A stretch of 64,000 bases of DNA, from NCBI RefSeq assembly GCF_003664995.1, contig NZ_JFHL01000007.1:1-64000 (forward strand). Direction: 5' to 3'. This document shows, in pieces, positions 13,921 to 43,515 of this stretch; positions within the stretch are counted from its first letter, which is position 1; each line of letters begins with the position of its first letter. Source of the DNA: Mesotoga sp. BH458_6_3_2_1. Its GTDB lineage: Bacteria > Thermotogota > Thermotogae > Petrotogales > Kosmotogaceae. Made by a program: the position numbers and the translations under genes. Under the pieces are notes generated by a model. That model ran no database searches. It was not told the DNA's origin and worked only from the letters and a program-made list of their open reading frames with translations.

Positions 13921-14508
13921 TTGGACTCAACAAGGCACCAACTACCTCATAAGAAGATTATTAGAATAGATGAACTCAAAGAAATGGGATATAGCTTCTA
14001 TCGTATCAAGAAGCTTATCGAGGAGAATATCCTCAAGAAACTGACGCGCAAAAGCTATGAAAATCTAATCTACGAGGGAGATGAATCGGACTTTTACTAT
14101 GTCAATGCTTATGTGCCAAGGGGTGTGATCTGCCTGATTAGCTCGGCAATCTACTGGCAGCTTACCACAGAGCGTTCCACAGCAATAGACGTGGCGATTT
14201 CCAGGAGCGACAAGATTTATACGATGCCAGAGTGGCCTCAGATTCAACTTTACTATTACAGCAAAATTCGATACAATACCGGAATCGTGACTATTCGCGA
14301 AGACTCGAATCAGTTCTCCATTTATGATCCGGAAAAGACAGTGATCGACATCCTGCAATATCGGGAAAGACTCGGAATTGAAGTCGCAAAGGAAGTGCTT
14401 GTTCAGTATCTCGCAAAAAAAGATAGAAACCTGAACGGACTATACAGATATGCCAAGGAACTCGGCAGTTCAAAGATACTAAGAACCTATCTGGAGGTGT
14501 TGCTATGA
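13921..14508 (+). CDS. abiEi: AbiEi-type antitoxin (type IV toxin-antitoxin)
   Basis: From a TTG at 13921 the protein is 195 residues. The N-terminal winged helix reads IRIDELKEMGYSFYRIKKLIEENILKKLTRKSYEN. The C-terminal AbiEi domain includes VISSAIYWQLTTERSTAIDVAI-like and SIYDPEKTVIDIL segments, the latter diagnostic of the family. The upstream ATG at 13855 lies inside the operator palindrome and has no ribosome binding site, whereas AAGAGGTGAG precedes the TTG at the right distance. Such antitoxins repress transcription and counter the nucleotidyltransferase toxin without a direct complex. The end overlaps the toxin gene by 4 bp. Confidence 0.8.
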   Translation: MDSTRHQLPHKKIIRIDELKEMGYSFYRIKKLIEENILKKLTRKSYENLIYEGDESDFYYVNAYVPRGVICLISSAIYWQLTTERSTAIDVAISRSDKIYTMPEWPQIQLYYYSKIRYNTGIVTIREDSNQFSIYDPEKTVIDILQYRERLGIEVAKEVLVQYLAKKDRNLNGLYRYAKELGSSKILRTYLEVLL

Positions 14509-15422
14509 ACAAGGCAGCATCTGTAAAAGCCAGACTGAGAAATCTGGCCCGGAAGCAAGGCCGGAGTTATCAGGATCTACTGCAAATCTATGCGCTTGAA
14601 CGAACCATCTACAGATTATCCCTCTCTCCCCACAAAGACAAATTCACATTGAAAGGCGGGATCTTTCTTTATGCGCTATTTGAAGGGCGGTTCCCGCGAT
14701 CAACAACCGATATAGATCTGTTGGGGCAGAGGATCAGCAACGAAAAGGAATCTCTCGAGAAGGTTTTCCATGATATCTTCTCGGTAGATACCGACGATGG
14801 GATGCGTTTCGATCTGGAAAGCATGAACCTACGCACCATTGCAGATGCAAAACAATACCCCGGTACTCGAATAACCATTACGGCCTACATAGAGCGAACA
14901 AGATTATCCGTAACCGTCGATGTCGGATTTGGCGACTGTATAACACCCGAGAGGGTTCAGATGGAGTTCCCGGTACTGCTGAATGATCCGGAGCCGGTGG
15001 TCTTCGCATACTCAAAAGAATCGGTTATCGCAGAAAAACTTGAAGCGATAGCCTCGCTGGGTTTCCTGACCAGTCGCTACAAAGACTTCTACGACATCTT
15101 TTTGCTGTCCAGATTCTTTCATTTCAATGGCACAACACTGCAAGCCGCAATTGGGGAGACATTTAGAAATCGTGGCACACCGATGGAAGAGATCGTCGCA
15201 TTCGAGAAGCAATTCATTTCCGATTCACTCCATAAGAGAAGATGGGCAGCCTTCGCTAAAAAGAAAAACATTACGTTCGATACATCTCTTGAGGAAGTTA
15301 TGAGCCAAATCAAGAGCTTCCTAATCCCTGTACTTGAAGCCTTACAGAGAGATGAGATCTTCGCCTCGTACTGGGAGCCTGATGACCTAAGCTGGAAGTT
15401 CCGACGAGTGGGACAGAGGTAA
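14505..15422 (+). CDS. abiEii: AbiEii-type nucleotidyltransferase toxin
   Basis: The 305-residue protein of the AbiEii/AbiGii family shows motif I KGG at residues 50-52, the paired aspartates in RSTTDIDLLG (Asp69, Asp71), and the later EKLEAIASL...RYKDFYDIFLL block. AbiEii enzymes transfer nucleotides to target RNA (tRNA in studied homologues) and cause growth arrest on phage infection. ATGA coupling to abiEi and intact motifs suggest a working module. It differs clearly from the second AbiE toxin at 29846. Confidence 0.85.
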   Translation: MNKAASVKARLRNLARKQGRSYQDLLQIYALERTIYRLSLSPHKDKFTLKGGIFLYALFEGRFPRSTTDIDLLGQRISNEKESLEKVFHDIFSVDTDDGMRFDLESMNLRTIADAKQYPGTRITITAYIERTRLSVTVDVGFGDCITPERVQMEFPVLLNDPEPVVFAYSKESVIAEKLEAIASLGFLTSRYKDFYDIFLLSRFFHFNGTTLQAAIGETFRNRGTPMEEIVAFEKQFISDSLHKRRWAAFAKKKNITFDTSLEEVMSQIKSFLIPVLEALQRDEIFASYWEPDDLSWKFRRVGQR

Positions 15423-21576: not shown

Positions 21577-22173
21577 CTAATCTTCTATCCACTTGAGAAG
21601 CTCTTCGACTAACTTGTATACCGTCGTGCACGAACACGCGCTATCGGGATCATGCCCGAATGTAATATGCTGTTGATGGCCTTTCTTCGCATTCTCGATT
21701 GCATTTTCTATCATTGCAAAGGTTTTGTCAAAGAGATTGCGATCATTCTTTTCATATTTGCTTCCAAGATGTTTTTCAAGAATTTCACTATACTTGGCTC
21801 TATTTATCTCACGTGTGAAGAATTCGAAATGTAGAATGAACCATATTTCAAAGGCTTGATTTGACCATGCAACGCTTACTCCACTATCACGTGCTTCATC
21901 TATTGCTGGTCCCAGATCAAAGTTGTCCTTGTCAAATACTGCCCATACCGCTGCAATTGATGAATCGGAATCCTTTAGCGAAATAGCTTTCTTCACTAGC
22001 GCTATTGGCTCGGCTGTATTGCTACCTGTTCCGATCACTTCAACTCGAACCTTGCCCAGTCTACCGATTTTCAATCCGAAACTCTTGAAATAATTGACCT
22101 CTGTTTTGGTTCTTCCGCATACAATAACAATCGTATCTTTCGTCTTTCTAGAGCGCCGTTGCTTTCTTTTCAT
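21577..22173 (-). CDS. rloB: RloB-family protein (AbiLii-like)
   Basis: The 198-residue RloB-domain protein has an N-terminal basic stretch, then IVIVCGRTKTEVNYF (the family's TE-NYF motif, with the usual first Glu replaced), AVWAVFDKDNF (the D-x-D of a TOPRIM-like core) and WSNQAFEIWFILHFEF, strongly diagnostic of RloB. It lies 4 bp after the RloA-like ATPase. The pair has the layout of lactococcal AbiL and of RloA/RloB in restriction loci. It probably acts as the effector nuclease of an abortive-infection system. The replacement of the motif-I Glu by Gly is worth checking. Confidence 0.8.
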   Translation of the reverse strand: MKRKQRRSRKTKDTIVIVCGRTKTEVNYFKSFGLKIGRLGKVRVEVIGTGSNTAEPIALVKKAISLKDSDSSIAAVWAVFDKDNFDLGPAIDEARDSGVSVAWSNQAFEIWFILHFEFFTREINRAKYSEILEKHLGSKYEKNDRNLFDKTFAMIENAIENAKKGHQQHITFGHDPDSACSCTTVYKLVEELLKWIED

Positions 22174-22177
22174 ATTT

Positions 22178-23467
22178 CTAGAACCTCATCTTAGGGATAC
22201 CATCAAATTGACCCAGCAAATACGCCTTCTTAAGATTCAGATCCTTTCTTACATTTGTGAAATCAGTGAGTCTATAGAGCGAGCTCTCTCCAAGTTCATT
22301 TTTGTCAACAAACCAGAACTGGTCTCTACGAACTTTCTTGCTTTCGAGGATCAAAGGGTTGTGAGTGTTGCAGATCATTTGAGCGTTCTTAGAATTCTCG
22401 CTAATAGAGTTGAACTTGTCGATAAGCGCCTCTACCAAAAGCGGATGCAGCTTTGAGTCAATTTCGTCGATAAGGATTACCTTGCCGTGAGTCAATGCAT
22501 CAACAACCGGACCGAGGATCTTGAAGAACTTCTTCGTGCCCTCAGATTCAAACTCTCGTAGATCACAAAGGATTTTCGCCTTCTTAGACCTATCGTCGTT
22601 ATACATGTCGTGACTGGTGAACACATCATAACTAAGAAATTTGCTCGTACCATTTCTTCCATCATGCACCTGCGTAATATCGATTTCTAAGTCATTACGC
22701 CTTCCAGTTATATCTTTGAAATAGGTCTCCACATCTTCAAATTCCTCACGCCTAATCTCAAGTCCACTTATTCCCTGGTCGGCTTCACGCATGAAATTAA
22801 CAGTCTTTTCGTAGAGGGCCTTATCTTCGTAAAGCCTGGCTGCAGTGAGAGACGTAGGAAATCTTGACGCATCGATAATTATCAGAGAGCGGAGATAGTT
22901 GAAAACCGTATTCACAAGATCAACAGAGCCAATCTTGTTTATCACCGACAAGAATAAGACGTTAGGATTTGTGAATTCTACGAACTTCTTCAACTCTCCA
23001 TATTTCTTTGTAATCACGATATCTTTCTTCGAGGCGGATTCCCTCAAGAAGATCCTTGTTTCTCTTTCATGGGTAATGAAAAGCCACTCACTGTGAATGC
23101 TGTCCCCTTGAATTTCGAATCCGTATCTGAACTTGCGAGGACCTCCGCTAAACTCAGTAAGAAACTCAATCTCAAACTTGGTTGGTCTTTTCTCCGCGCC
23201 CTCTTTGAAAGCAAAACGATCTGTCTGAAGGCGATAGCTATCATCAAAGGAGTGAAGAAGTATGTCCCGCATCTTTGCTATTCCCTTGAGTAGATTGCTC
23301 TTGCCTCCGGCATTCTTTCCGTAAATGAACGAAGACTTCAGTAGACACCATTTACCTGAAACGAAAGTATTGAGTTCCTGCAATTCCGAGACAGACTCAC
23401 ACTCCATGGAGAAGACGGTTTCATCAAGAAAGGAACGGAAATTCTTAATCGCGAAAGAAACTAACAT
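22178..23467 (-). CDS. rloA: RloA-like AAA ATPase (AbiLi-like)
   Basis: A 429-residue SMC/OLD-type ATPase. The opening is MLVSFAIKNFRSFLDET, Walker A is GKNAGGKSN (residues 50-58), a long helical middle follows, Walker B is VILIDEIDSKLHP, and the H-loop motif is CNTHNP. The start at 23467 is preferred over 23488 because GGAGGTGAGGGG lies directly before it. The neighbour RloB supplies the nuclease-like partner. ATPases of this kind sense infection and release or activate the partner, as established for related two-gene defence systems; that is inference here. Confidence 0.8.
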   Translation of the reverse strand: MLVSFAIKNFRSFLDETVFSMECESVSELQELNTFVSGKWCLLKSSFIYGKNAGGKSNLLKGIAKMRDILLHSFDDSYRLQTDRFAFKEGAEKRPTKFEIEFLTEFSGGPRKFRYGFEIQGDSIHSEWLFITHERETRIFLRESASKKDIVITKKYGELKKFVEFTNPNVLFLSVINKIGSVDLVNTVFNYLRSLIIIDASRFPTSLTAARLYEDKALYEKTVNFMREADQGISGLEIRREEFEDVETYFKDITGRRNDLEIDITQVHDGRNGTSKFLSYDVFTSHDMYNDDRSKKAKILCDLREFESEGTKKFFKILGPVVDALTHGKVILIDEIDSKLHPLLVEALIDKFNSISENSKNAQMICNTHNPLILESKKVRRDQFWFVDKNELGESSLYRLTDFTNVRKDLNLKKAYLLGQFDGIPKMRF

Positions 23468-23538
23468 CCCCTCACCTCCCCGGTACAAAACAAATAGAGA
23501 CTAACGACCATTAATGATAACATCGAAAACTCACCTCT

Positions 23539-27338: not shown

Positions 27339-28169
27339 CTACTCCTTCTTCGGTCTTCCCCTCGGCTTACTGCCAAGTGGAACCCCGAGCTCCTTCTCAA
27401 GATCGGCTACAAGTTCTTCGGCAAACAACGGCTTTCCAGAAAACGTGTTTCCCCTGATTCTACTGAGAAAACCATCTTCGTCGGGAAAACCCAGAAATTC
27501 TCTCCAGCCTTCGGGAGTCCAGTTAACATCGAGTTCCTCCAGCGAAGAAAGCTTTATAGTCCTAAAAGATGATGTTGAGATCTGAGAAGTTAAAGTATCT
27601 CCCTCAGACACCTTTTCCACTTCAGAAATCGAATGACTTTGGGTAATAACTCGTGAAATAGCGGACTCCTGACTTCTTTGCTCAGATTCATTGCCCTCAT
27701 CTTCACTGGGAATTCCTGGCTCCTCAATAAATCCCACATGTTCTCTCGCACTCGACCATTCATACTCCCAGGGAAACTGAACCATCTTTGCACGAACGGG
27801 ATTTCTCTCAACATACCTCAACGCTTCAGGAGCGTGATCATGATGCAGCGGACAGGAATAGAACCTTCCCTGCCAGAGATGCCCCGATCTCCGGTTCTTC
27901 TTATTGAAGTAGCTGGAGTACCTCATATTGGCGTACTTAAAAGTCATTGCTAGGGAATCTCTTCTTAGGGGAGCCGCTAGAAAATGAACATGGTTGGTCA
28001 TTAGGCAGTAAGCGTAGATCTTCATGTGATACTTTCCAGAATATTCGCTGACGAACTCGATGTACTTCTTCCGGTCGGCAGAATCCTCAAATATGTTCTG
28101 TCTGTAATTACCTCTCTGAGTAATGTGATGAACAACACCTTCGAATACAACCCGAGCAGACCTCGGCAT
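27339..28169 (-). CDS. REP-associated tyrosine transposase (RAYT, Y1_Tnp)
   Basis: A 276-residue single-strand transposase related to IS200/IS605 TnpA. It has GVVHHITQRGNYRQNIFEDSADRKKYIEFV, the HUH motif in MTNHVHFLAAP (His60, His62) and the nucleophile Tyr119 in ALRYVERNPVRA. GHLWQGRFYS is another RAYT signature. A C-terminal tail of about 120 residues is specific to this subfamily. Of the three consecutive ATGs the last (28169) is best spaced from AGAGGTG. The gene lies between two R1 palindromes, 18 and 30 bp away, as RAYT genes do with their cognate REPs. It probably spread the R1 elements found throughout the window. Confidence 0.88.
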   Translation of the reverse strand: MPRSARVVFEGVVHHITQRGNYRQNIFEDSADRKKYIEFVSEYSGKYHMKIYAYCLMTNHVHFLAAPLRRDSLAMTFKYANMRYSSYFNKKNRRSGHLWQGRFYSCPLHHDHAPEALRYVERNPVRAKMVQFPWEYEWSSAREHVGFIEEPGIPSEDEGNESEQRSQESAISRVITQSHSISEVEKVSEGDTLTSQISTSSFRTIKLSSLEELDVNWTPEGWREFLGFPDEDGFLSRIRGNTFSGKPLFAEELVADLEKELGVPLGSKPRGRPKKE

Positions 28170-28198
28170 CATCATCACCTCTAACCGCGGAAATGTTA

Positions 28199-28246
28199 GC
28201 AAAAATGGGGACTGACAAGTCTTCTAATGTCTGTACCCATTTTTGC
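28199..28246. repeat. REP palindrome (R1) upstream of the RAYT gene
   Basis: GCAAAAATGGGGACTGAC...GTCTGTACCCATTTTTGC is a near-perfect outer stem. It and the copy at 27271 share GGGGACTGAC and GTCTGTACCC, while most other copies read AGGGACTGAC and GTCTGTCCCA. Confidence 0.7.
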
Positions 28247-28998: not shown

Positions 28999-29045
28999 AT
29001 TTATACTATATGCCACTAGATGTCAAGTCACGGAGAGGAGATCAA

Positions 29046-29849
29046 GTGAGGTTAGAACTTTTTTTTGAAGAATCACCGGTCTTCACGACTCGTGATCTAA
29101 AAGAATTTCTGAAGAAGAATGAAGCGAAGAGTCTTGAGAACTACAGCGTTCTTCTGAATTACCACGTTAAGAGAGGTCGTGTCCTCAAAATCTGTCGTGG
29201 CCTCTACGCAGTGGTACCCCTAAACCAGAAGGCAGAACAATTCGCCCCTGATTCATTTCTCATCGCAGGGAAGAGAACAGAGGATGCGATTCTTGCCTAT
29301 CATACGGCTCAGGAATTCAATGGGAATACCTACTCGCTTTTCAGTACCAGAACATTCTTGACTATGAAGAGTGTGCATCCTTTAGTATTCAGGGAAATCG
29401 AATACGTACCGACTCACCCCTCTCAGAACCTGCTTCGTTCAGACAACTACTTCCTACTCACGGAGCAAGTGGATATAAAAGGTATAAACGTTCTTATAAC
29501 CAGTAGAGAAAGAACATTTGCAGATATGCTCGATAGACCCAATCTATGTGGCGGAATTGAAGAGGTCTGGCGTTCCCTCAAAATGACCGAGTATCTAAAC
29601 ACCGAAAACCTGCTGAATTATCTGAGAGCGCTTGACAACTCTACCACTAGCGCCAAAGTCGGCTTCTTCTTACAAAGACATCCGAAAATCACAAACAATG
29701 ATCAGACTCTATTGAGAGAACTTAAAAAAATGATCCCAGTTTCGCCGCATTACTTTGATCGATCACGTGTTGACAGATCCAGGTTGGTGAAGGATTGGAA
29801 TCTCGTAATTCCTGAATACATATTGAATGAAAGGTGGGAAGAGCAATGA
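29046..29849 (+). CDS. abiEi: AbiEi-family antitoxin, longer type
   Basis: From GTG 29046 the protein is 267 residues. It has an N-terminal winged helix (LFFEESPVFTTRDLKEFL...NYHVKRGRVLKICRGLYAVVP) and a C-terminal AbiEi-like body with ISSRERTFADMLDRPNLCGGIEEVWRSL. The GTG follows GGAGAGGAG. The ATG at 29010 would be almost leaderless after the predicted promoter and has no ribosome binding site. It is not closely similar to the AbiEi at 13921, so this is an independently acquired module. The end overlaps the toxin gene in ATGA. Confidence 0.75.
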   Translation: MRLELFFEESPVFTTRDLKEFLKKNEAKSLENYSVLLNYHVKRGRVLKICRGLYAVVPLNQKAEQFAPDSFLIAGKRTEDAILAYHTAQEFNGNTYSLFSTRTFLTMKSVHPLVFREIEYVPTHPSQNLLRSDNYFLLTEQVDIKGINVLITSRERTFADMLDRPNLCGGIEEVWRSLKMTEYLNTENLLNYLRALDNSTTSAKVGFFLQRHPKITNNDQTLLRELKKMIPVSPHYFDRSRVDRSRLVKDWNLVIPEYILNERWEEQ

Positions 29850-30811
29850 GAATGTCCAGGGAGACTCTGTCCAGATTATCCGGTCAGACGGGTTATCGGC
29901 AGGAGATTATTGAGAAAGTCTCTCTACTGCTTTCATGGCTTGATCGCGCATCAAGTATCGATCGTCTCAAAGGAAGTTTCGCTCTAAAGGGGGGAACGGC
30001 AATTAATCTATTCTTCCTGGAAATTCCGAGATTGTCGGTAGATATAGATATCAACTATATTGGATCACCCACTCGAGAAGAACTCGACTGTGACAGAGAC
30101 GGTTTTGAGAACATCATAGAATCAGTTTGCCACGAAGAGAGCCTGTCCATAAGAAACAAAAGGGATTCAGAAGCAGCCACCTCTTATTCATTGAGGTACG
30201 TAAGCTCCCTATCTTCTGGAGGAAACCTGTCTATTGACATAAACTACATGATGAGGGTTCCACTGTTTGAAATAGAAACAATGGATTCAAGGCAGCTAGG
30301 TAGTCAAATAGCCGGCAGAGTTCCATTAGTAAACAAGCTGGAAGTTTTCGCCTCGAAAATCGCGGCCTGTTTTTCGCGAGAAACAAGCAGAGACCTTTAT
30401 GATGTATATTTGCTCCATAAGCAAATAGACACCCTTGATCTTGAAAAACTCCGGCTTGCCTTTACGGTTTTTGGGGGGTTGAATCGAAAGAACTGGCTCG
30501 AAATAGACGAAAAATCACTTCGAGTAAACAAGAATGATCTGAAAAAACGATTGTTGCCACTTCTAAGAGGTACACTTGACAAAGAAGAACTCGACACTCT
30601 CGCCAGTGATATCGAAAGATCATGCCAGAAAGTAACCTCCTATTTGTTGCCTCTGAAAGACAATGAAAGAGAATTCTTAAGAATACTAAACGAAAAAGGC
30701 GAAATCAGACCAGAAATCATTACCGATGACAAAGAATTGGTAGATAGAATCAAGAAGCAGCCTATGCTCAAATGGAAAGCACTGAATGTTAGGCAGACTC
30801 TTCAAGGCTGA
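29846..30811 (+). CDS. abiEii: AbiEii-family nucleotidyltransferase toxin, second type
   Basis: The 321-residue protein has KGG at 48-50 (FALKGGTAINL), the aspartate pair in PRLSVDIDINYIG (Asp66, Asp68), and LVNKLEVFASKIAA...RDLYDVYLL. The start at 29846 is preferred over GTG 29834 because AAGGTGGG (29831-29838) is its ribosome binding site and would be consumed by the longer version. Catalytic motifs are intact. The role is as for the first AbiEii: RNA nucleotidyl transfer leading to dormancy, inferred from the family. Confidence 0.82.
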   Translation: MRMSRETLSRLSGQTGYRQEIIEKVSLLLSWLDRASSIDRLKGSFALKGGTAINLFFLEIPRLSVDIDINYIGSPTREELDCDRDGFENIIESVCHEESLSIRNKRDSEAATSYSLRYVSSLSSGGNLSIDINYMMRVPLFEIETMDSRQLGSQIAGRVPLVNKLEVFASKIAACFSRETSRDLYDVYLLHKQIDTLDLEKLRLAFTVFGGLNRKNWLEIDEKSLRVNKNDLKKRLLPLLRGTLDKEELDTLASDIERSCQKVTSYLLPLKDNEREFLRILNEKGEIRPEIITDDKELVDRIKKQPMLKWKALNVRQTLQG

Positions 30812-31438: not shown

Positions 31439-32029
31439 CTACTCGAGAGATTCTAGCGCTCTAATTGCCTTTTGAAGGCTAGCCGAACACCCTGCGGCCC
31501 GCTGCGGATTCCAGAACTCTAAGACATACTTAGCCAATGACGAATTGTATGCTGGACCAACTGTCACATGCTTTCCAGCTGAGGGAAGTATGTCTTCTTT
31601 CAAAGATCTCTTTTTGCTTCTCTTAACGAGGCTCAAAAGCTTTTCCTTCGGATCCAGCAATATATCAGGATCTTTGGGCACAAGGCGCTCACTAATTCCC
31701 AAAAAATCTGAAAACGAGCCTCTGTCAGCCATCAGCATGCTCTCAGTTTCATGTACGGCTATTCTAAAAACAAAGCGACCTGTACAAGGAATGAACCCAA
31801 GCCAATTCAGGACTCTTGACGGAGCACATATCTCGTTATCGAGATCAGCCAATACAACGAATGGAATTTGTTGCGAAGCTTTCCAAAACCTTTTAACATT
31901 ACTCTTGATGTATCCAAACCCACCATTCTTGTATACTGTCTTTACAGTCAAATCAGGCCTTACCTCGGAAAGAATTTTTCTGACGGTATACTCACTCAAT
32001 ACATCTTCCACTACTAGACAAATATACAT
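31439..32029 (-). CDS. TOPRIM-like (DUF4276-type) partner of an AAA ATPase
   Basis: The 196-residue protein shows features of the DUF4276/TOPRIM-like group: an opening strand with acidic residues MYICLVVEDVLSEYTVRKIL, an acidic D-L-D motif in FVVLADLDNEICAP, and RIAVHETESMLMADRGSFSDFLGI, which resembles the E-x-WLLAD block of that family. These features suggest a metal-dependent nuclease fold. AGGAG lies before the start, inside the end of the upstream ATPase gene, so the pair is coupled. It is probably the effector of a two-gene ATPase-nuclease defence module. The family assignment is from motif memory only. Confidence 0.6.
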   Translation of the reverse strand: MYICLVVEDVLSEYTVRKILSEVRPDLTVKTVYKNGGFGYIKSNVKRFWKASQQIPFVVLADLDNEICAPSRVLNWLGFIPCTGRFVFRIAVHETESMLMADRGSFSDFLGISERLVPKDPDILLDPKEKLLSLVKRSKKRSLKEDILPSAGKHVTVGPAYNSSLAKYVLEFWNPQRAAGCSASLQKAIRALESLE

Positions 32030-32039
32030 ATCACTGCTC

Positions 32040-33185
32040 CTACAAGACTTCTAGTTCACGAATATCCTTTGGAATAGTGTGAGGCGCCACAATTTCACCA
32101 ACACTCATACCCGCTTCAAGAAGGGGAGCTGCTTCGTTGATTGAAGTTGCGACTCTTACTTCCGTTCCCTCTGGAGATGGTGCAAGAAGAAGAACCTCTT
32201 CGAGTGCAATACCTTTATTCATAAGCAAGTCCATGCTATGCGTACTCAATAAAACCTGACGACTCTTGCTCTTTTGAAGTTTATACATTAGCTCTGGAAG
32301 CAGCTGAATAAGTGCCTTATGAAGGGATAGTTCTGGTTCCTCAAGAAGGAGCAATGAATTGTCTTCAAGAATTACCCAGAGGAGTCCAATTAGGCGGAGC
32401 GTTCCATCGGAAAACTGATCTTCACGCTGTTTTGCACCGTGGCCTCTCCAATGTTCATACCTTGCTTCCAAATGGGGTTTCCCCATCTTATCAATCACAA
32501 ATGAAAGATCTTTGAGCTGAGGCACTGCCTTCTTAAGGAGCTCTTCAACTTTTTCTAGTCGAGAACTTCTCGTCTTCTCCGGAGTCTCGGCGAGTCTCTT
32601 TACGAAAGTCTGGCCAAAAGGGTCTCCAGGCAAAGCATAACCCGAAAATGTAGCGGCGAATCGTATGAACTGAGGGACGAGATGAAGATACTGAACTCGC
32701 TGAAGAAACTCAGACACCTCCCTGAAGTCCCTATTTGCACTAATCTGTTCAAGGTTGGTCTGTGTTAGTCTTTGAGGGTCTTCTTTATCTCCTTCATTGG
32801 GTCTGTCGAGAATGAGTATGTTATCTTTCCAAACTCTCTCATGAGTCAATACTTGTAGTCGCTTACCACCTGTCTCACGAGTAATGCCTAGCGAGTATCG
32901 CCACTTCTCTTCTTTTCTTTGATCATCTGAAAGAGTGATCGAAATTTGGACATCTGAGCTTCTGCGCGCTGACAGACATCTAACTTTCGAAATGCCTCCT
33001 CGATTGGTCAATGCCTCCTGCAGGCCTCCCCCAGACTTTGCTATGTCTCTCAGAAATCTAAGCACATCGAGGAAATTGGATTTTCCCGATGCGTTGGGCC
33101 CGACAAGAAAAACTCTTCTGGTAAGATCCACATCGATCTCCCGGAAATTTCTCCAGTTCCTGACGGATAGATGCGAAACAAGCAC
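32040..33185 (-). CDS. AAA_21-type ATPase
   Basis: A 381-residue SMC/OLD-like ATPase. The opening is MLVSHLSVRNWRNFREIDVDL, Walker A is GPNASGKSN (29-37), Walker B is LLLLEEPELSLH and the H-loop is LLSTHSMDLL. The middle is short, without a TOPRIM domain, so nuclease activity would have to come from the next gene. The gap between them is 10 bp. Layouts of ATPase plus a small TOPRIM protein occur in PARIS (AriA/AriB) and related systems; this pair is similar in layout only. Confidence 0.8.
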   Translation of the reverse strand: MLVSHLSVRNWRNFREIDVDLTRRVFLVGPNASGKSNFLDVLRFLRDIAKSGGGLQEALTNRGGISKVRCLSARRSSDVQISITLSDDQRKEEKWRYSLGITRETGGKRLQVLTHERVWKDNILILDRPNEGDKEDPQRLTQTNLEQISANRDFREVSEFLQRVQYLHLVPQFIRFAATFSGYALPGDPFGQTFVKRLAETPEKTRSSRLEKVEELLKKAVPQLKDLSFVIDKMGKPHLEARYEHWRGHGAKQREDQFSDGTLRLIGLLWVILEDNSLLLLEEPELSLHKALIQLLPELMYKLQKSKSRQVLLSTHSMDLLMNKGIALEEVLLLAPSPEGTEVRVATSINEAAPLLEAGMSVGEIVAPHTIPKDIRELEVL

Positions 33186-34018: not shown

Positions 34019-35758
34019 CTAAAAGGATTCACTTAGTTTTTTAAACTTTTCTTCGATTAAATTGCGAAGAGCCACAAATGATCGAGGATATGAACTCACA
34101 TTCTGAATTGAAGGAATCAAATTGTCAGTTTTCTTTATCTCTTTCTTTTTTTCTGTCATTAGATAGTTAGTTGTACAGTCGGATGACGAAATGGATAGAA
34201 TGCTACACATATTCTGGCGGATCTTCTTCACATTGAGTAAATCTTTTTCGAGCGCATAGTTCATGCATACAGTGGAGTATTTCGCTAGGATCTTCAAGGC
34301 TTGTGTATGATTCGAGATGAGCATATGTTCAATCTTCTTTCTTTCCGGTTCTTTTGTAATAATCTGCTGTATTAGATCGAGCCGTTCTTGCTTGAATTCC
34401 TTCTTGAATCGAGGCAGTCCATCACTTCCTAGGCTATTTTCAAGTTCATCATTAACGTATGGCAGGAAGAAATCCTTGTCAACAACCACTATATATTGTA
34501 GGTGGAGTGCTGCAAGTAGGTAAAGTACGTACTTCAGATTACCAACGCCACGAAGATCAACGAAGCTTATTCTGTTTAGGTACGTCCTAATGGTAGGTTG
34601 ATTTGATACAAAATCTTTCAGAACATCCGCATCGCTTTCACTCTCTGCAATGATAACAAGATCAGAAAAGAAGAACTCGCTATTTCGATACCTATGAAAC
34701 TTTTCATATTTTTCGGCTTTAATATCGTGATTAGCGTAGAATTCCTCTTCAAGCTTGCTGGTAACTGACTTGAAGCCACGTTTTTTGTCTGCCGCTTTCC
34801 TTACCAAAACCAAGTCTTCATGACGGAGTTCATCGATAATGGTTGGAGAATGTGATGTGAAGATAATCTGTGCTTCCGAATCATGATTTCTTATGTCTCG
34901 AAGTTGGGAAACAAATTCTCTTTGTGCTTGTGGATGCAGATTTGATTCAGGTTCTTCGATTCCCAGAATTACATTCTTTTTTTCGGTTGACGCCAAATAT
35001 CTGTACAGTGCAATCACTAACATACTTTTGATACCAGTACCGCAGTCAGAAACATTGAATGAGTTAGAGTGATCAACAATCTTCAAACCAAGATCAAACA
35101 GTAACATAGAATAATCTAAAGTCTTTACGTAGTCAAGAGTAAGTTCATATGAGTGCTCAAGACAATAATACCTTTCAAGCTTCTTTGTAATGCTCGGGAA
35201 GTGTTTCTCTGCAAGTTCTTTAGCAGAAGCACGAACGGATGGTGATACTCTGTCCCGATTCTTTGTCCTCTTCCTAAACTCCTTTTCAATAACTCTTCTA
35301 AGTAGGGAGTTCTCTTTGGCTTCCATTTTCTCAGCGTCCCTTGAAGCTGGAATGAGCACAAAGGATATATCAGAGAAAATCCTAGCTCGTAGGTCTTCCT
35401 GTAAAGCTGCTAATCTTGTTCCAGTTGTAGCCCACTTATATTCAGCTTTCTTGTTATTTGGATTATATCTAAAACGTACCTTAAAGGAATCGAGGATTGA
35501 ATAGTTTTTATAGATCTGCGAGTTTGGTATATCCGTAAAAACAACTTCAATTATCGAGTTACTAGTTGGAGTATATGAGTGATTGCCATTTATCAAATTA
35601 TCTTTCTCCTCTTCGAAATTGAAGAATACGTTGAGCGCCCTAAGAATGCTTGACTTTCCAGAGTTGTTTTTTCCGACAATTGCACAAACATCGCCAAGAG
35701 TGAATTCACTTTTCTCGAAAGAACGGAATCTACGAATATAAATCTTTGCAATTTTCAC
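34019..35758 (-). CDS. OLD-family ATPase-TOPRIM nuclease
   Basis: From GTG 35758 the protein is 579 residues, the usual length of OLD nucleases. The N-terminal ATPase half has Walker A GKNNSGKSS, Walker B VILGIEEPESNLHP and H-loop FTSHSP. The C-terminal TOPRIM half has LVIIAESESDADVL (catalytic Glu) and YIVVVDKDFF (D-x-D). The start is set by GGAGTGG upstream; the frame to 35821 lacks one. OLD nucleases restrict phage DNA; class 2 members (GajA) work with a UvrD-like GajB, which is absent on both sides, so this looks like a stand-alone OLD nuclease. Confidence 0.85.
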   Translation of the reverse strand: MKIAKIYIRRFRSFEKSEFTLGDVCAIVGKNNSGKSSILRALNVFFNFEEEKDNLINGNHSYTPTSNSIIEVVFTDIPNSQIYKNYSILDSFKVRFRYNPNNKKAEYKWATTGTRLAALQEDLRARIFSDISFVLIPASRDAEKMEAKENSLLRRVIEKEFRKRTKNRDRVSPSVRASAKELAEKHFPSITKKLERYYCLEHSYELTLDYVKTLDYSMLLFDLGLKIVDHSNSFNVSDCGTGIKSMLVIALYRYLASTEKKNVILGIEEPESNLHPQAQREFVSQLRDIRNHDSEAQIIFTSHSPTIIDELRHEDLVLVRKAADKKRGFKSVTSKLEEEFYANHDIKAEKYEKFHRYRNSEFFFSDLVIIAESESDADVLKDFVSNQPTIRTYLNRISFVDLRGVGNLKYVLYLLAALHLQYIVVVDKDFFLPYVNDELENSLGSDGLPRFKKEFKQERLDLIQQIITKEPERKKIEHMLISNHTQALKILAKYSTVCMNYALEKDLLNVKKIRQNMCSILSISSSDCTTNYLMTEKKKEIKKTDNLIPSIQNVSSYPRSFVALRNLIEEKFKKLSESF

Positions 35759-35821
35759 AAACGCCACTCCTTCAGCAGGCTTTCGTCTAATCGAATCTGA
35801 TGATCTCTCAAAATTGCACAA

Positions 35822-36126: not shown

Positions 36127-37092
36127 TCAGTCAAGCGAATACTGCGCAGAGAGAAGAAACAAGAGGACCCGGTCCGGTGAGTAAGGACCTGTTGAGCTTG
36201 ATGCAAGCAACTTGTTGTTGATTCGCGCAGTAACAGTCATATCCTTTCCCTTACTCTTTGTATAGACTCTAACTGTCAGATTGAAGCAGGCCTTATCCCA
36301 AGTTTCATCCAGCTCGATAACATGTACATGCGGGATTGTTCCCCTGATCTCCTGTCTGATCTTCGTGTTTGGGTACGACCTCTGAATGTCAATATACCCA
36401 CTGTAAGCTGTATCAAAGTCTCCTGTAACTGTAATCGAAAGAGTTCTTTTGGAAGCCATCTTTTCACTTGTGTGGATTCTTGCCTCGAGAGAGGTTTCAG
36501 GATTCTCATCCTCGCTCCAAATTCCGATTCGGTTGATCTTCGCATAGTGCTTAGCCTGTTCCATGTATTCATGAAGCTTTCCTTTGAAGTTAGTTTCAGG
36601 AACATAGTCACAGAGTCCATTCATAACCAGAAGGAGATTAGCAGATATCATTACTTCCGTACCTTCAAGCTCGTAAGGAAACCACAGATAGGACAGATAA
36701 TTGGAATCAGAATCGTATCTGAAAGCATCGAATGATAGAAAGACATCGCTATCTAGAAGTGCATTTTCCATTAGTGTAGTTGCTCTCTCCAAATAGGGAA
36801 TGAAGGGCGATTCTTCTCTTGGAAGTCTTACTCCAATTAGCCTCACTCTGGGATAGAACATCCCTATTGCAACATCCATGTGGGCAGCGTCATCTATCCT
36901 CTCTACCTTTCCTTCTTCCATTTCCCGAAAGGAAGCCTTTAGACTGACGAATTCCCTTGCATAAACGACTTCTTCTCCCGAGATGTCAAGAACAATGGGA
37001 GTGAGAGAAATCGCAAGAGATGCAAGCATTGAAGCAAAAACTATCAGGAAAGCCCTTGCAAACCGGGGGTGAAAAGCGACCGTAGAACTCAC
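36127..37092 (-). CDS. membrane-anchored SNase-like protein, catalytic residues apparently lost
   Basis: The 321-residue protein has one hydrophobic segment (about 12-36, FARAFLIVFASMLASLAISLTPIVL) acting as anchor or signal. A staphylococcal-nuclease-like OB fold follows: PRVRLIGVRLPREESPFIPYLERATTLMENALLDSDVFLSFD...YLSYLWFPYELEGTEVMISANLLLVMNGL. The Arg equivalent to SNase Arg35 is present (VRLIGV). The Asp40 and Glu43 positions (VDTPE in SNase) read VRLPR, so nuclease activity is doubtful. A C-terminal domain of about 130 residues looks like a beta sandwich. The GTG start overlaps the stop of the NERD gene by 4 bp, so the two proteins are probably co-translated and both sit at the membrane. 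Confidence 0.65.
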   Translation of the reverse strand: MSSTVAFHPRFARAFLIVFASMLASLAISLTPIVLDISGEEVVYAREFVSLKASFREMEEGKVERIDDAAHMDVAIGMFYPRVRLIGVRLPREESPFIPYLERATTLMENALLDSDVFLSFDAFRYDSDSNYLSYLWFPYELEGTEVMISANLLLVMNGLCDYVPETNFKGKLHEYMEQAKHYAKINRIGIWSEDENPETSLEARIHTSEKMASKRTLSITVTGDFDTAYSGYIDIQRSYPNTKIRQEIRGTIPHVHVIELDETWDKACFNLTVRVYTKSKGKDMTVTARINNKLLASSSTGPYSPDRVLLFLLSAQYSLD

Positions 37093-37796
37093 GATATCTT
37101 CGACCTCACATTATCTATGTGAGCACTCTTCGTGTAACTGTCGGCGTGAGTGAATCCCATTAACTTCACGTAGATCCTGTCGACCTGTTCAGGCTCAAAT
37201 ACATTCGGAGAACTCATCATGTCAAGCTTCACGTTTCTCAGTAGGCTGTCTCTCTTCATAACAAATACATTTGGCAAATTGACACTAAGCTTCTTCAAGG
37301 TGCAACGCTCACTGAAAACTATATAAGACCTGTATAGTTCTGGATTTCCCAGCCCGGTCGCATGCTTCAGAGCCGTTATGTGACCATTGTTTTGCCACAC
37401 TGGATTATAGAAGTGATTCTTCTGCTTGTTCTCCAGGACCTGAGTCCAGTTTCTTCCCTTTTCATCGCCAAAGATCCAGCCGCTGTAGTTCTTCGATTCA
37501 AAAACGTATATTCCGGTCTCAGCTATCATCAGAATATCTATCTCCGTAGTCGATCCATCCGACTTTGGAAGATAGACGTTCGTCAGCAGCCGGTGATGTC
37601 TTTCCAGTTTCTCGAGCCTGGAAGAGATAAGAAACTCGCCGTAGTTCCGCTTATCGAAAAGAATCTGCAGAAAGGAGTTCCCGCTCGCATCCTTATACGA
37701 AGATTTCCTGTACTTAAGATAGATGCTCAAAAGATAAAGAACTACGAAGCCAATTGCCAAAAGTACGATTGCAGAAAGAAACGCACTTAAGGTCAT
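37089..37796 (-). CDS. membrane-anchored NERD-domain protein
   Basis: The 235-residue protein has an N-terminal membrane helix (FLSAIVLLAIGFVVLYLLSIYL) and then a NERD domain: RNYGEFLISSRLEKL (Glu), TTEIDILMIAETGIYVFESKNYSGWIFG (Asp, then E-x-K of the nuclease core), followed by NPVWQNNGHI. NERD is a nuclease-related fold and all its acidic positions are present here. The start is supported by GGAGGT. It is the first gene of a two-gene unit with the SNase-like protein. Confidence 0.8.
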   Translation of the reverse strand: MTLSAFLSAIVLLAIGFVVLYLLSIYLKYRKSSYKDASGNSFLQILFDKRNYGEFLISSRLEKLERHHRLLTNVYLPKSDGSTTEIDILMIAETGIYVFESKNYSGWIFGDEKGRNWTQVLENKQKNHFYNPVWQNNGHITALKHATGLGNPELYRSYIVFSERCTLKKLSVNLPNVFVMKRDSLLRNVKLDMMSSPNVFEPEQVDRIYVKLMGFTHADSYTKSAHIDNVRSKIS

Positions 37797-41958: not shown

Positions 41959-43068
41959 TCATCTCACGAACTCTATCGGCTTGGGCAATGTGATTTCTTC
42001 AAATGCTTTGAGAGCATAATCATCTGTCATACCCGCTATGTAATCAATAACAACTCTCAACGGACTGAATTGCCCTAATGGATATGCATTTTGCCTTCTT
42101 TCAATGTAGTCACCAATACGATTGATGAGCTTTCCATGGTCACCTCTATACAGTTCGAAAGCCATCTGATACTCGCCAACATGATGTACAAGATACTCGA
42201 AGAGCGTCTCAATTATTCTCTCTACGTATTCAATATACTTTGCTAACACTTCATGCTTATAGATCTTGTCATAGTTGAATCTCTTCAGTTTCGTTATCAA
42301 ATCAAACTTTTGATCAGAGAAACCGATTAGTTGATTTCTCAATGACCAATGGACCAAATCGTTCACGAGAGTATCAATTATTTCTCCGTTTTTGCCGCCA
42401 AGAGCGTCACGTATTGTCTCTGGGACATCCTCAATCTTGACTATATTGGCAGTAATTGCGTCCTCAATGTCGCGCCCTAGGTATGCTATCTTGTCGGCAA
42501 ATCTTACAGCACAACCTTCATAGGTCGTTGGAATTGTCCCCTTCTTCTGAATAGTATCAAGATCTTTCGGGGTTTCACATGGAGCAAGGCTACGGTCATC
42601 TTCTTCCCCGCAATGAGACACTATCCCGTCTCTGACAGCATAAGTTAGATTGAGGCCCTTGCCATCGTTTTCAATCCGATCCAATACTCTAAGGCTTTGG
42701 ACCTCATGAAAGAAACCCCCAGAACTGGACGCTAGTTCATTGAGTTTCTTCTCTCCCGCATGCCCAAATGGAGCATGGCCAATGTCATGGCCAAGCGCGA
42801 TCGCCTGCGCCATCTCTACGTCAAGTCCCAAAGCTTTGCATATTACTGAAGCTATAGTCGATACATGCAGCGAATGCTCAATTCGAGTGCACACATGATC
42901 GTTTTGAGGAGAGAAGAAAACCTGAGTCTTCTTTTTCATTCTTCTGAAGGCCATACAGTGGATAATCGCAGTTTGATCCCGGAAATACGGACCTCTAATG
43001 TCTTCTTCGCGCTTCTGAATCCTTGTCTTGTAGAAATCATCAGTCAAAGGATTTCGAAAACCAGCCAT
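41959..43068 (-). CDS. dgt: dGTP triphosphohydrolase (HD domain)
   Basis: The 369-residue dGTPase hydrolyses dGTP to deoxyguanosine and triphosphate. It opens MAGFRNPLTDDFYKTRIQKREEDIRGPYFRDQTAIIHCMAFRRMKKKTQVF. The HD metal site is formed by TRIEHSLHVSTI, IALGHDIGHAPFGHAGE (the HD pair) and a later Asp in VRFADKIAYLGRDIEDA. The start at 43068 has AGGGGG in the right place, unlike 43098. dGTPases serve housekeeping roles, and some deplete dNTPs during phage infection. Its position beside a defence island and with an unknown partner leaves both open. Confidence 0.88.
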   Translation of the reverse strand: MAGFRNPLTDDFYKTRIQKREEDIRGPYFRDQTAIIHCMAFRRMKKKTQVFFSPQNDHVCTRIEHSLHVSTIASVICKALGLDVEMAQAIALGHDIGHAPFGHAGEKKLNELASSSGGFFHEVQSLRVLDRIENDGKGLNLTYAVRDGIVSHCGEEDDRSLAPCETPKDLDTIQKKGTIPTTYEGCAVRFADKIAYLGRDIEDAITANIVKIEDVPETIRDALGGKNGEIIDTLVNDLVHWSLRNQLIGFSDQKFDLITKLKRFNYDKIYKHEVLAKYIEYVERIIETLFEYLVHHVGEYQMAFELYRGDHGKLINRIGDYIERRQNAYPLGQFSPLRVVIDYIAGMTDDYALKAFEEITLPKPIEFVR

Positions 43069-43069
43069 A

Positions 43070-43515
43070 CTTATCCCCCTTTTGTGCTGTGTTTTCAACT
43101 CCTCTATGTAGATTCAGAAATGATTCCCCAATCAAAACTCAAACAATTAACGAGAAAAAGTCCTGTTCTCAGCAGAACAACTACGTACAACTTGCCGCAC
43201 CGATGCATGACCTCTGTTTCCTCAACGGCCTTAAAACAGAAAATGCTCAAAACAAGAAAGAATATTGCAAAGCAATTCTATCACTATCACGCTTTGTTCA
43301 GAAAACAAGCTCAGAATTGAGATGATTATGAAAGCTTGGCTTTGGATTCAACTATGTACTCAGCGTTGGGAAACGCTTTTAGAACTATGTCTTCAAGCCT
43401 AGAACCAGTGCCCAAAGAACACCAAGAAGCTCTCATACACATCTAACTGTCAACCAAATATGTTCGAAAGAGCGTAAGGCTTGTCAGCATCCAACAGAAG
43501 ATTTCGAAGAGGCTT
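43070..43515. other. intergenic stretch, nothing recognised
   Basis: No conserved frame, repeat family member or clear terminator was seen between the dgt start and the flippase stop codon. Confidence 0.35.

Follow-up and report, generated by a model that had tools for sequence, protein, structure and literature searches.

The window analysed here is a 64,000-nucleotide stretch from a Mesotoga genome of 3.2 Mb in 36 contigs (G000). Two adjacent genes lie on its minus strand, the first encoding a NERD protein and the second an SNase-like protein. The features concerned are the following.

37089-37796, minus strand: NERD protein of 235 aa, with a single N-terminal transmembrane (TM) helix and with E54, D87, E100 and K102 intact.
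37728-37784, minus strand: NERD TM segment, residues 5-23, with no K/R before it and four after, predicting an N-out protein with a cytoplasmic domain.
37089-37092, minus strand: GTGA stop/start overlap of the NERD and SNase-like genes, read in the sequence.
36127-37092, minus strand: SNase-like protein of 321 aa, predicted to be exported or membrane-anchored and apparently catalytically degenerate.
37012-37068, minus strand: hydrophobic helix at the N-terminus of the SNase-like protein, residues 9-27; its charges predict N-in/C-out, and it may be either a signal peptide or an anchor.
36508-36930, minus strand: SNase OB-fold domain, residues 55-195, from Pfam and the AlphaFold model.
36817-36843, minus strand: degenerate active-site strand R84-L-I-G-V-R89-L90-P-R92, replacing RLIGxDTPE, from alignment.
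36145-36450, minus strand: C-terminal all-beta region of the SNase-like protein, residues 215-316, from the model and a genome search.
41959-43098, minus strand: dGTPase-type HD protein, near the pair in both pair-bearing genomes; a possible associate, not an operon member.

The preliminary description placed the pair beside a defence island, and the surroundings are indeed defence-rich, with HEC-01A/B, OLD/GajA-like ATPase-Toprim, AbiE and AbiL/RloB-like genes. A HEC-01A/HEC-01B-like pair lies at 31439-33185 (PADLOC E 1e-156 and 3e-57), and an OLD/GajA-like AAA + Toprim ATPase (34019-35821) follows directly downstream of the NERD/SNase-like pair. An AbiEi/AbiEii pair occupies 29010-30811, a further AbiEii gene lies at 14505-15422, and an RloB-like protein adjoins an AbiL-like ATPase at 21577-23488. 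Intergenic repeats of 60-300 bases, belonging to 16 families, are scattered in large numbers between 20000 and 43500, and the same region holds an IS200-like Y1 transposase (27339-28202); we take the repeats and transposase to be, possibly, REP elements with their RAYT. No Rfam families were found in the window, and promoter and terminator scans yielded no more than they did in shuffled sequence. The dGTPase-type gene lies about 4 kb upstream of the pair in the window and about 2 kb upstream in the related genome G005. Among 17 genomes searched, it had a strong match in G000 and G005 only, the remaining six matches being partial (E about 5e-4). Its place beside the pair in both genomes may simply reflect a common island.

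Pfam assigned the first protein to NERD (PF08378, E=3e-28; 99 bits, cut-off 22.1) and found nothing else in it at E up to 1. Its acidic residues had been described as intact, and E54, D87, E100 and K102, residues of the PD-(D/E)XK type, were invariant in 7/7 aligned relatives. A structure model built from a four-row alignment (mean pLDDT 72.7) resembled PD-(D/E)XK nucleases, with Can2 matched at Z 10.1 and rmsd 2.8 over 118 aligned positions and with Cdn1 and McrBC also matched; the best Foldseek E for this model was only 1.1e-3. A search for PDB sequence relatives of the NERD alignment found none. NERD domains are common, and to our knowledge their biochemistry is nearly unstudied; the window protein is a putative nuclease.

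The second protein matched PF00565 (E=1.9e-8; 35.1 bits, cut-off 21). Residues 53-194 of its AlphaFold model (mean pLDDT 78.8) superimposed on staphylococcal nuclease with Z 18.3 and rmsd 2.2 over 130 aligned positions, so that the SNase fold proposed earlier is unambiguous in the model. Where RLIGxDTPE is expected, the protein reads RLIGVRLPRE. Aligned to staphylococcal numbering, D40 is replaced by R89, T41 by L90, E43 by R92, D21 by A70 and R87 by N131, leaving R35, present as R84, as the sole retained active-site residue. We take D21, D40, T41, E43, R35 and R87 to be the Ca2+ and catalytic residues of staphylococcal nuclease. The earlier account had the arginine kept and the Asp and Glu lost (VRLPR for VDTPE), and the loss proves larger, extending to D21, T41 and R87. 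The same losses were seen in G005, and the NCBIfam thermonuclease profile NucI scored 28.8 bits against a cut-off of 250. Judged from its residues, the SNase-like protein is catalytically dead. The former acid positions are now arginines, R89 and R92, beside R84. Two glutamates stand right after R92 in both genomes, and cleavage through a site rebuilt from, for example, E93/E94 and R84/R89/R92 can be envisaged; we consider this highly improbable, since by alignment the D21, D40, T41 and E43 positions are all lost and R87 corresponds to N131, identically in both genomes.

Most Thermotogota SNase paralogues retain DTPE and YGR-type motifs. The SNase-like protein is, from its sequence features, a Thermotogota exported SNase paralogue: it shares with the exported thermonuclease/SNase family (PF00565) an N-terminal export segment, the SNase fold and an N-terminal LTPIxLxxG...YxxE element. 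It differs from the Thermotogota paralogues, which have LTD or zinc-ribbon-like C-termini, in its lost catalytic and metal residues and in a different C-terminal beta region. The PADLOC profile C3a212 (SNc+LTD) matched residues 22-204 (E=9.7e-11); Pfam found no LTD (lamin tail domain) in the protein, and does find one in paralogue L037. Two more degenerate SNases have also lost the site (L005 in G014 and L018 in G012), neither with a Pfam SNase match at E 0.01. The SNase tree groups long branches, and one loss of the site is indistinguishable in it from several. Net charge was -11 for the SNase-like domain, -13 for L005 and -10 to +4 for intact paralogues. Such acidity would not favour DNA binding, yet it is not decisive because intact paralogues are often as acidic (-2 to -10).

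Of 101 genomes, only G000 and G005 yielded sequences related to the C-terminal beta region. Pattern scans from a two-row alignment, which reach close relatives only, gave 132 stretches in genome contigs with 0 confirmed as relatives of the SNase-like protein; a viral pattern scan of the same reach gave 9 stretches with 0 confirmed, and plasmids gave no tblastn match. At the 3' end of the SNase-like gene, across its final 58 codons, DNA identity between G000 and G005 was 60%, compared with 95% just before, which suggests recombination. The drop maps to window positions 36127-36300 and L029:10351-10524.

Each protein has a hydrophobic helix near its N-terminus, as had been described (residues 5-23 of the NERD protein, residues 9-27 of the SNase-like protein). 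Because no K/R precedes the NERD TM segment and four follow it, and because the same bias occurs in 73/89 NERD relatives (C-in by charge; 1 was N-in, 5 were ties and no TM was called in 10), the NERD domain is predicted to be the cytoplasmic part of a single-pass inner-membrane protein. The SNase-like N-terminus has a positively charged segment and then a hydrophobic helix, as in exported paralogues, and its domain is therefore predicted to lie outside the membrane; the helix could be a cleaved signal peptide instead of an anchor. The suggestion that both proteins are anchored at the membrane is not supported in its original form: each has a helix, yet the NERD and SNase-like domains are predicted to face opposite sides of the membrane instead of lying side by side, and the SNase-like helix may be cleaved.

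Comparison of G000 with G005 revealed strong constraint on both proteins. The dN/dS was 0.107 across residues 41-235 of the NERD protein and 0.125 across the SNase domain; for the 30 codons of the SNase-like N-terminal helix alone it was 1.3, with few changes. The dS between the two genomes was 0.29-0.43, and the overlap and both reading frames were kept. The GTGA overlap, from which translational coupling had been proposed, is identical in G005. Because both genes are under purifying selection (domain dN/dS 0.11-0.13), the dead SNase is maintained as a protein and is not decaying. Chance or a pseudogene, considered as explanations, were rejected by the low dN/dS. In genome G004 nothing is left of the pair beyond 40 codons at the NERD start, along with the upstream region, on a short contig; this might be taken as a sign that the Mesotoga pair too is a decaying remnant; open frames and low dN/dS in G000 and G005 largely refute that reading, to which we give very little credence. 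The G004 start fragment (L033:1299-3460) lies beside RelA_SpoT and GmrSD_N genes, and the site suggests turnover of defence genes.

The two genes differ in origin. The closest NERD relatives came from Bacillota, with identity in the best segment reaching 58% among the 80 of 142 confirmed matches that were kept. A quick tree of modest support nested the Mesotoga-like NERD pair among Bacillota, apart from other Thermotogota NERDs, and lateral acquisition of the NERD gene is therefore the natural reading of that tree. When NERD and SNase positions were compared by eye in 103 Thermotogota genomes, NERD matches of at least 47 bits occurred in 7, with an SNase nearby in 2 of these 7. This count leaves out PF08378 matches scoring no more than 38.4 bits, mostly short frames that are presumably UPF0102/YraN-like. 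The NERD and SNase-like pair was found in 2/103 genomes, G000 and G005, which are two species of the same genus with the pair at one locus. Co-occurrence across genomes, which the preliminary description had proposed as a check, thus extends to two species, not beyond one genus and one locus; this goes halfway towards refuting that description, and wide conservation of the pair was rejected.

Outside Thermotogota, an SNase occurred in the flanks of 3/152 NERD loci, compared with 0.50 expected (Poisson 0.014). The expectation derives from an SNase density of 0.44 per Mb (about 95 match rows counted by eye, 2.05 Mb assumed per genome), and the 152 loci include near-duplicates, overlapping records and hand-picked plasmid stretches. 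The SNase of a Clostridiales contig (L129) is on the same strand as NERD, about 250 bases downstream, and has an intact motif. On a viral contig (L221) the SNase is divergent from NERD and its frame contains one stop. Plasmid p123 of Vibrio tubiashii (L213:3270-4615), chosen before its SNase neighbour was known, encodes an exported intact thermonuclease whose gene has an ATGA overlap with that of a tethered zinc-ribbon NERD. It resembles the window pair in this 4-base overlap of an exported SNase gene and a tethered-NERD gene, and differs from it in its reversed gene order, intact SNase site, zinc ribbon and distant sequence. This plasmid pair adjoins an integrase. All three SNases have, by reading, an N-terminal export-type segment. 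One narrow literature query found no published account of NERD and thermonuclease pairing on plasmids. The recurrence of the adjacency is a weak hint, compatible with a functional pairing and equally with none.

A mobile NERD gene may instead have landed upstream of a resident exported SNase that was already degenerate, so that the two share transcription and have no joint function. We regard this as a serious possibility, if still rather doubtful. It accords with the differing origins of the genes (NERD nested in Bacillota, the SNase-like protein in the Thermotogota exported family), with a pair known from one locus and with the 149/152 other NERD loci that had no SNase in the flanks examined. 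Against it stand the overlap and the purifying selection on both frames across the dS observed, as well as an SNase neighbour that is somewhat commoner than expected and once has a similar overlap.

Gene contexts of the NERD relatives were mixed. Across 90 NERD loci (89 loci plus L029) the most frequently shared neighbour, an ABC-type ATPase family, occurred at 9, and most of the 80 Bacillota loci had no common neighbour. Four of 29 viral loci (L091-L094) carried a tethered NERD flanked by the major head protein on one side and head-tail adaptor Ad1 on the other, the families being profile-checked in L093 and L094 and read from matching ORFs in L091 and L092; this capsid/connector placement was not found in the other 25. 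Matches occurred in 1916 plasmid records, of which 1811 are typed conjugative, most of the matches being weak and partial (218 covered at least 80% of the query). We opened 21 hand-picked plasmid stretches (5 hits and 16 of 60 listed). NERD followed traD, DUF4400 and an S49 peptidase in three of these, on IncHI1, IncFIB/HI1B and IncHI2 plasmids, and followed TraU in one; the remaining stretches were mixed, with recombinases, restriction-modification genes, replication genes or unannotated surroundings. The NERDs of G087 and G043 lie beside ordinary genes, as read from ORF starts. The tethered NERD family is mobile and repeatedly, though not always, near DNA-transfer genes.

A membrane-bound nuclease that cuts phage DNA during injection is known in SNIPE, a DUF4041/GIY-YIG protein which is reported to be N-out with a single N-terminal TM and a cytoplasmic nuclease (PMC13190303). 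The window NERD, by a prediction from charge alone, would likewise be N-out with a single N-terminal TM and a cytoplasmic nuclease domain by the membrane, and the target proposed for it is also entering DNA. It is unlike SNIPE in having a putative nuclease of the NERD/PD-(D/E)XK type instead of GIY-YIG, no DUF4041 by Pfam, an exported partner and a defence role that is only proposed. Given the analogy with SNIPE and the location of its relatives, at phage capsid/connector junctions and in tra operons of plasmids, a DNA-entry barrier is our best guess for the NERD half. The original observation is confirmed and sharpened, and its interpretation as an entry barrier or non-cutting sensor partly supported.

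SmdA of Staphylococcaceae, the best-studied membrane NERD, speaks against the entry model, as do the single known locus of the pair, the lack of a common neighbour at most Bacillota loci, the 25 viral loci where the capsid/connector placement was not found and the ordinary neighbours of the G087 and G043 NERDs. SmdA is described as a single-TM protein with a cytoplasmic NERD-like domain, a cell-division factor needed for staphylococcal morphology, which its authors report to be without several of the most conserved NERD residues (PMC9040797). The NERD family therefore need not be defensive. By comparison of descriptions, the window NERD shares the single TM and the predicted cytoplasmic domain of SmdA, and differs in retaining the conserved residues and in its patchy distribution. 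It could accordingly link the membrane to the nucleoid or division machinery, with the SNase-like protein as an envelope adaptor, and polysaccharide genes do lie near the pair in both the window and G005 (from reading ORFs). We consider such an envelope or division role unlikely: conserved residues reported absent from SmdA are present here, and a patchy mobile distribution with a truncated relic in G004 misfits an essential division factor.

We tentatively prefer, at a confidence short of even, a SNIPE-like reading in which the membrane NERD nuclease cuts entering DNA and the exported SNase without its site is coupled to it as an outside, non-catalytic partner. Besides the placement of relatives and the SNIPE analogy, the invariant NERD residues, the PD-(D/E)XK fold matches, the charge bias common to most relatives, the defence-rich surroundings and the low dN/dS speak for it. 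The NERD protein would be a nuclease that crosses the inner membrane once and belongs to a mobile family found mostly in Bacillota, its PD-(D/E)XK domain facing the cytoplasm, and would cut foreign DNA emerging through the membrane during phage or plasmid entry; the membrane tie would let it reach incoming DNA and spare the chromosome. Within the Mesotoga-like lineage translation of its gene would have become coupled to that of a resident exported SNase paralogue of Thermotogota type, which would have lost its metal site and might now serve outside the membrane in binding, docking or sensing. The role of the SNase-like protein is something we can only infer: its domain might attach to components of a phage or pilus, bind DNA itself, or have no part in what NERD does, and the two proteins may interact physically. 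More ambitiously, tethered NERD and exported SNase could form a recurrent two-sided DNA-entry system, the outside SNase meeting DNA or the entry machinery and the cytoplasmic NERD cutting, with the Mesotoga-like outside arm now a non-catalytic receptor; we think this improbable.

The pair couples two known kinds of protein in a way specific to its lineage, and its NERD member may be a second type of nuclease that is bound to the membrane and acts on entering DNA. Should tethered NERDs cut DNA there, entry defence of the SNIPE type would include another nuclease fold, unrelated to the first and carried by prophages and conjugative plasmids themselves. The exported SNase, dead yet kept by selection, would give a bacterial example of the SNase fold reused for binding.
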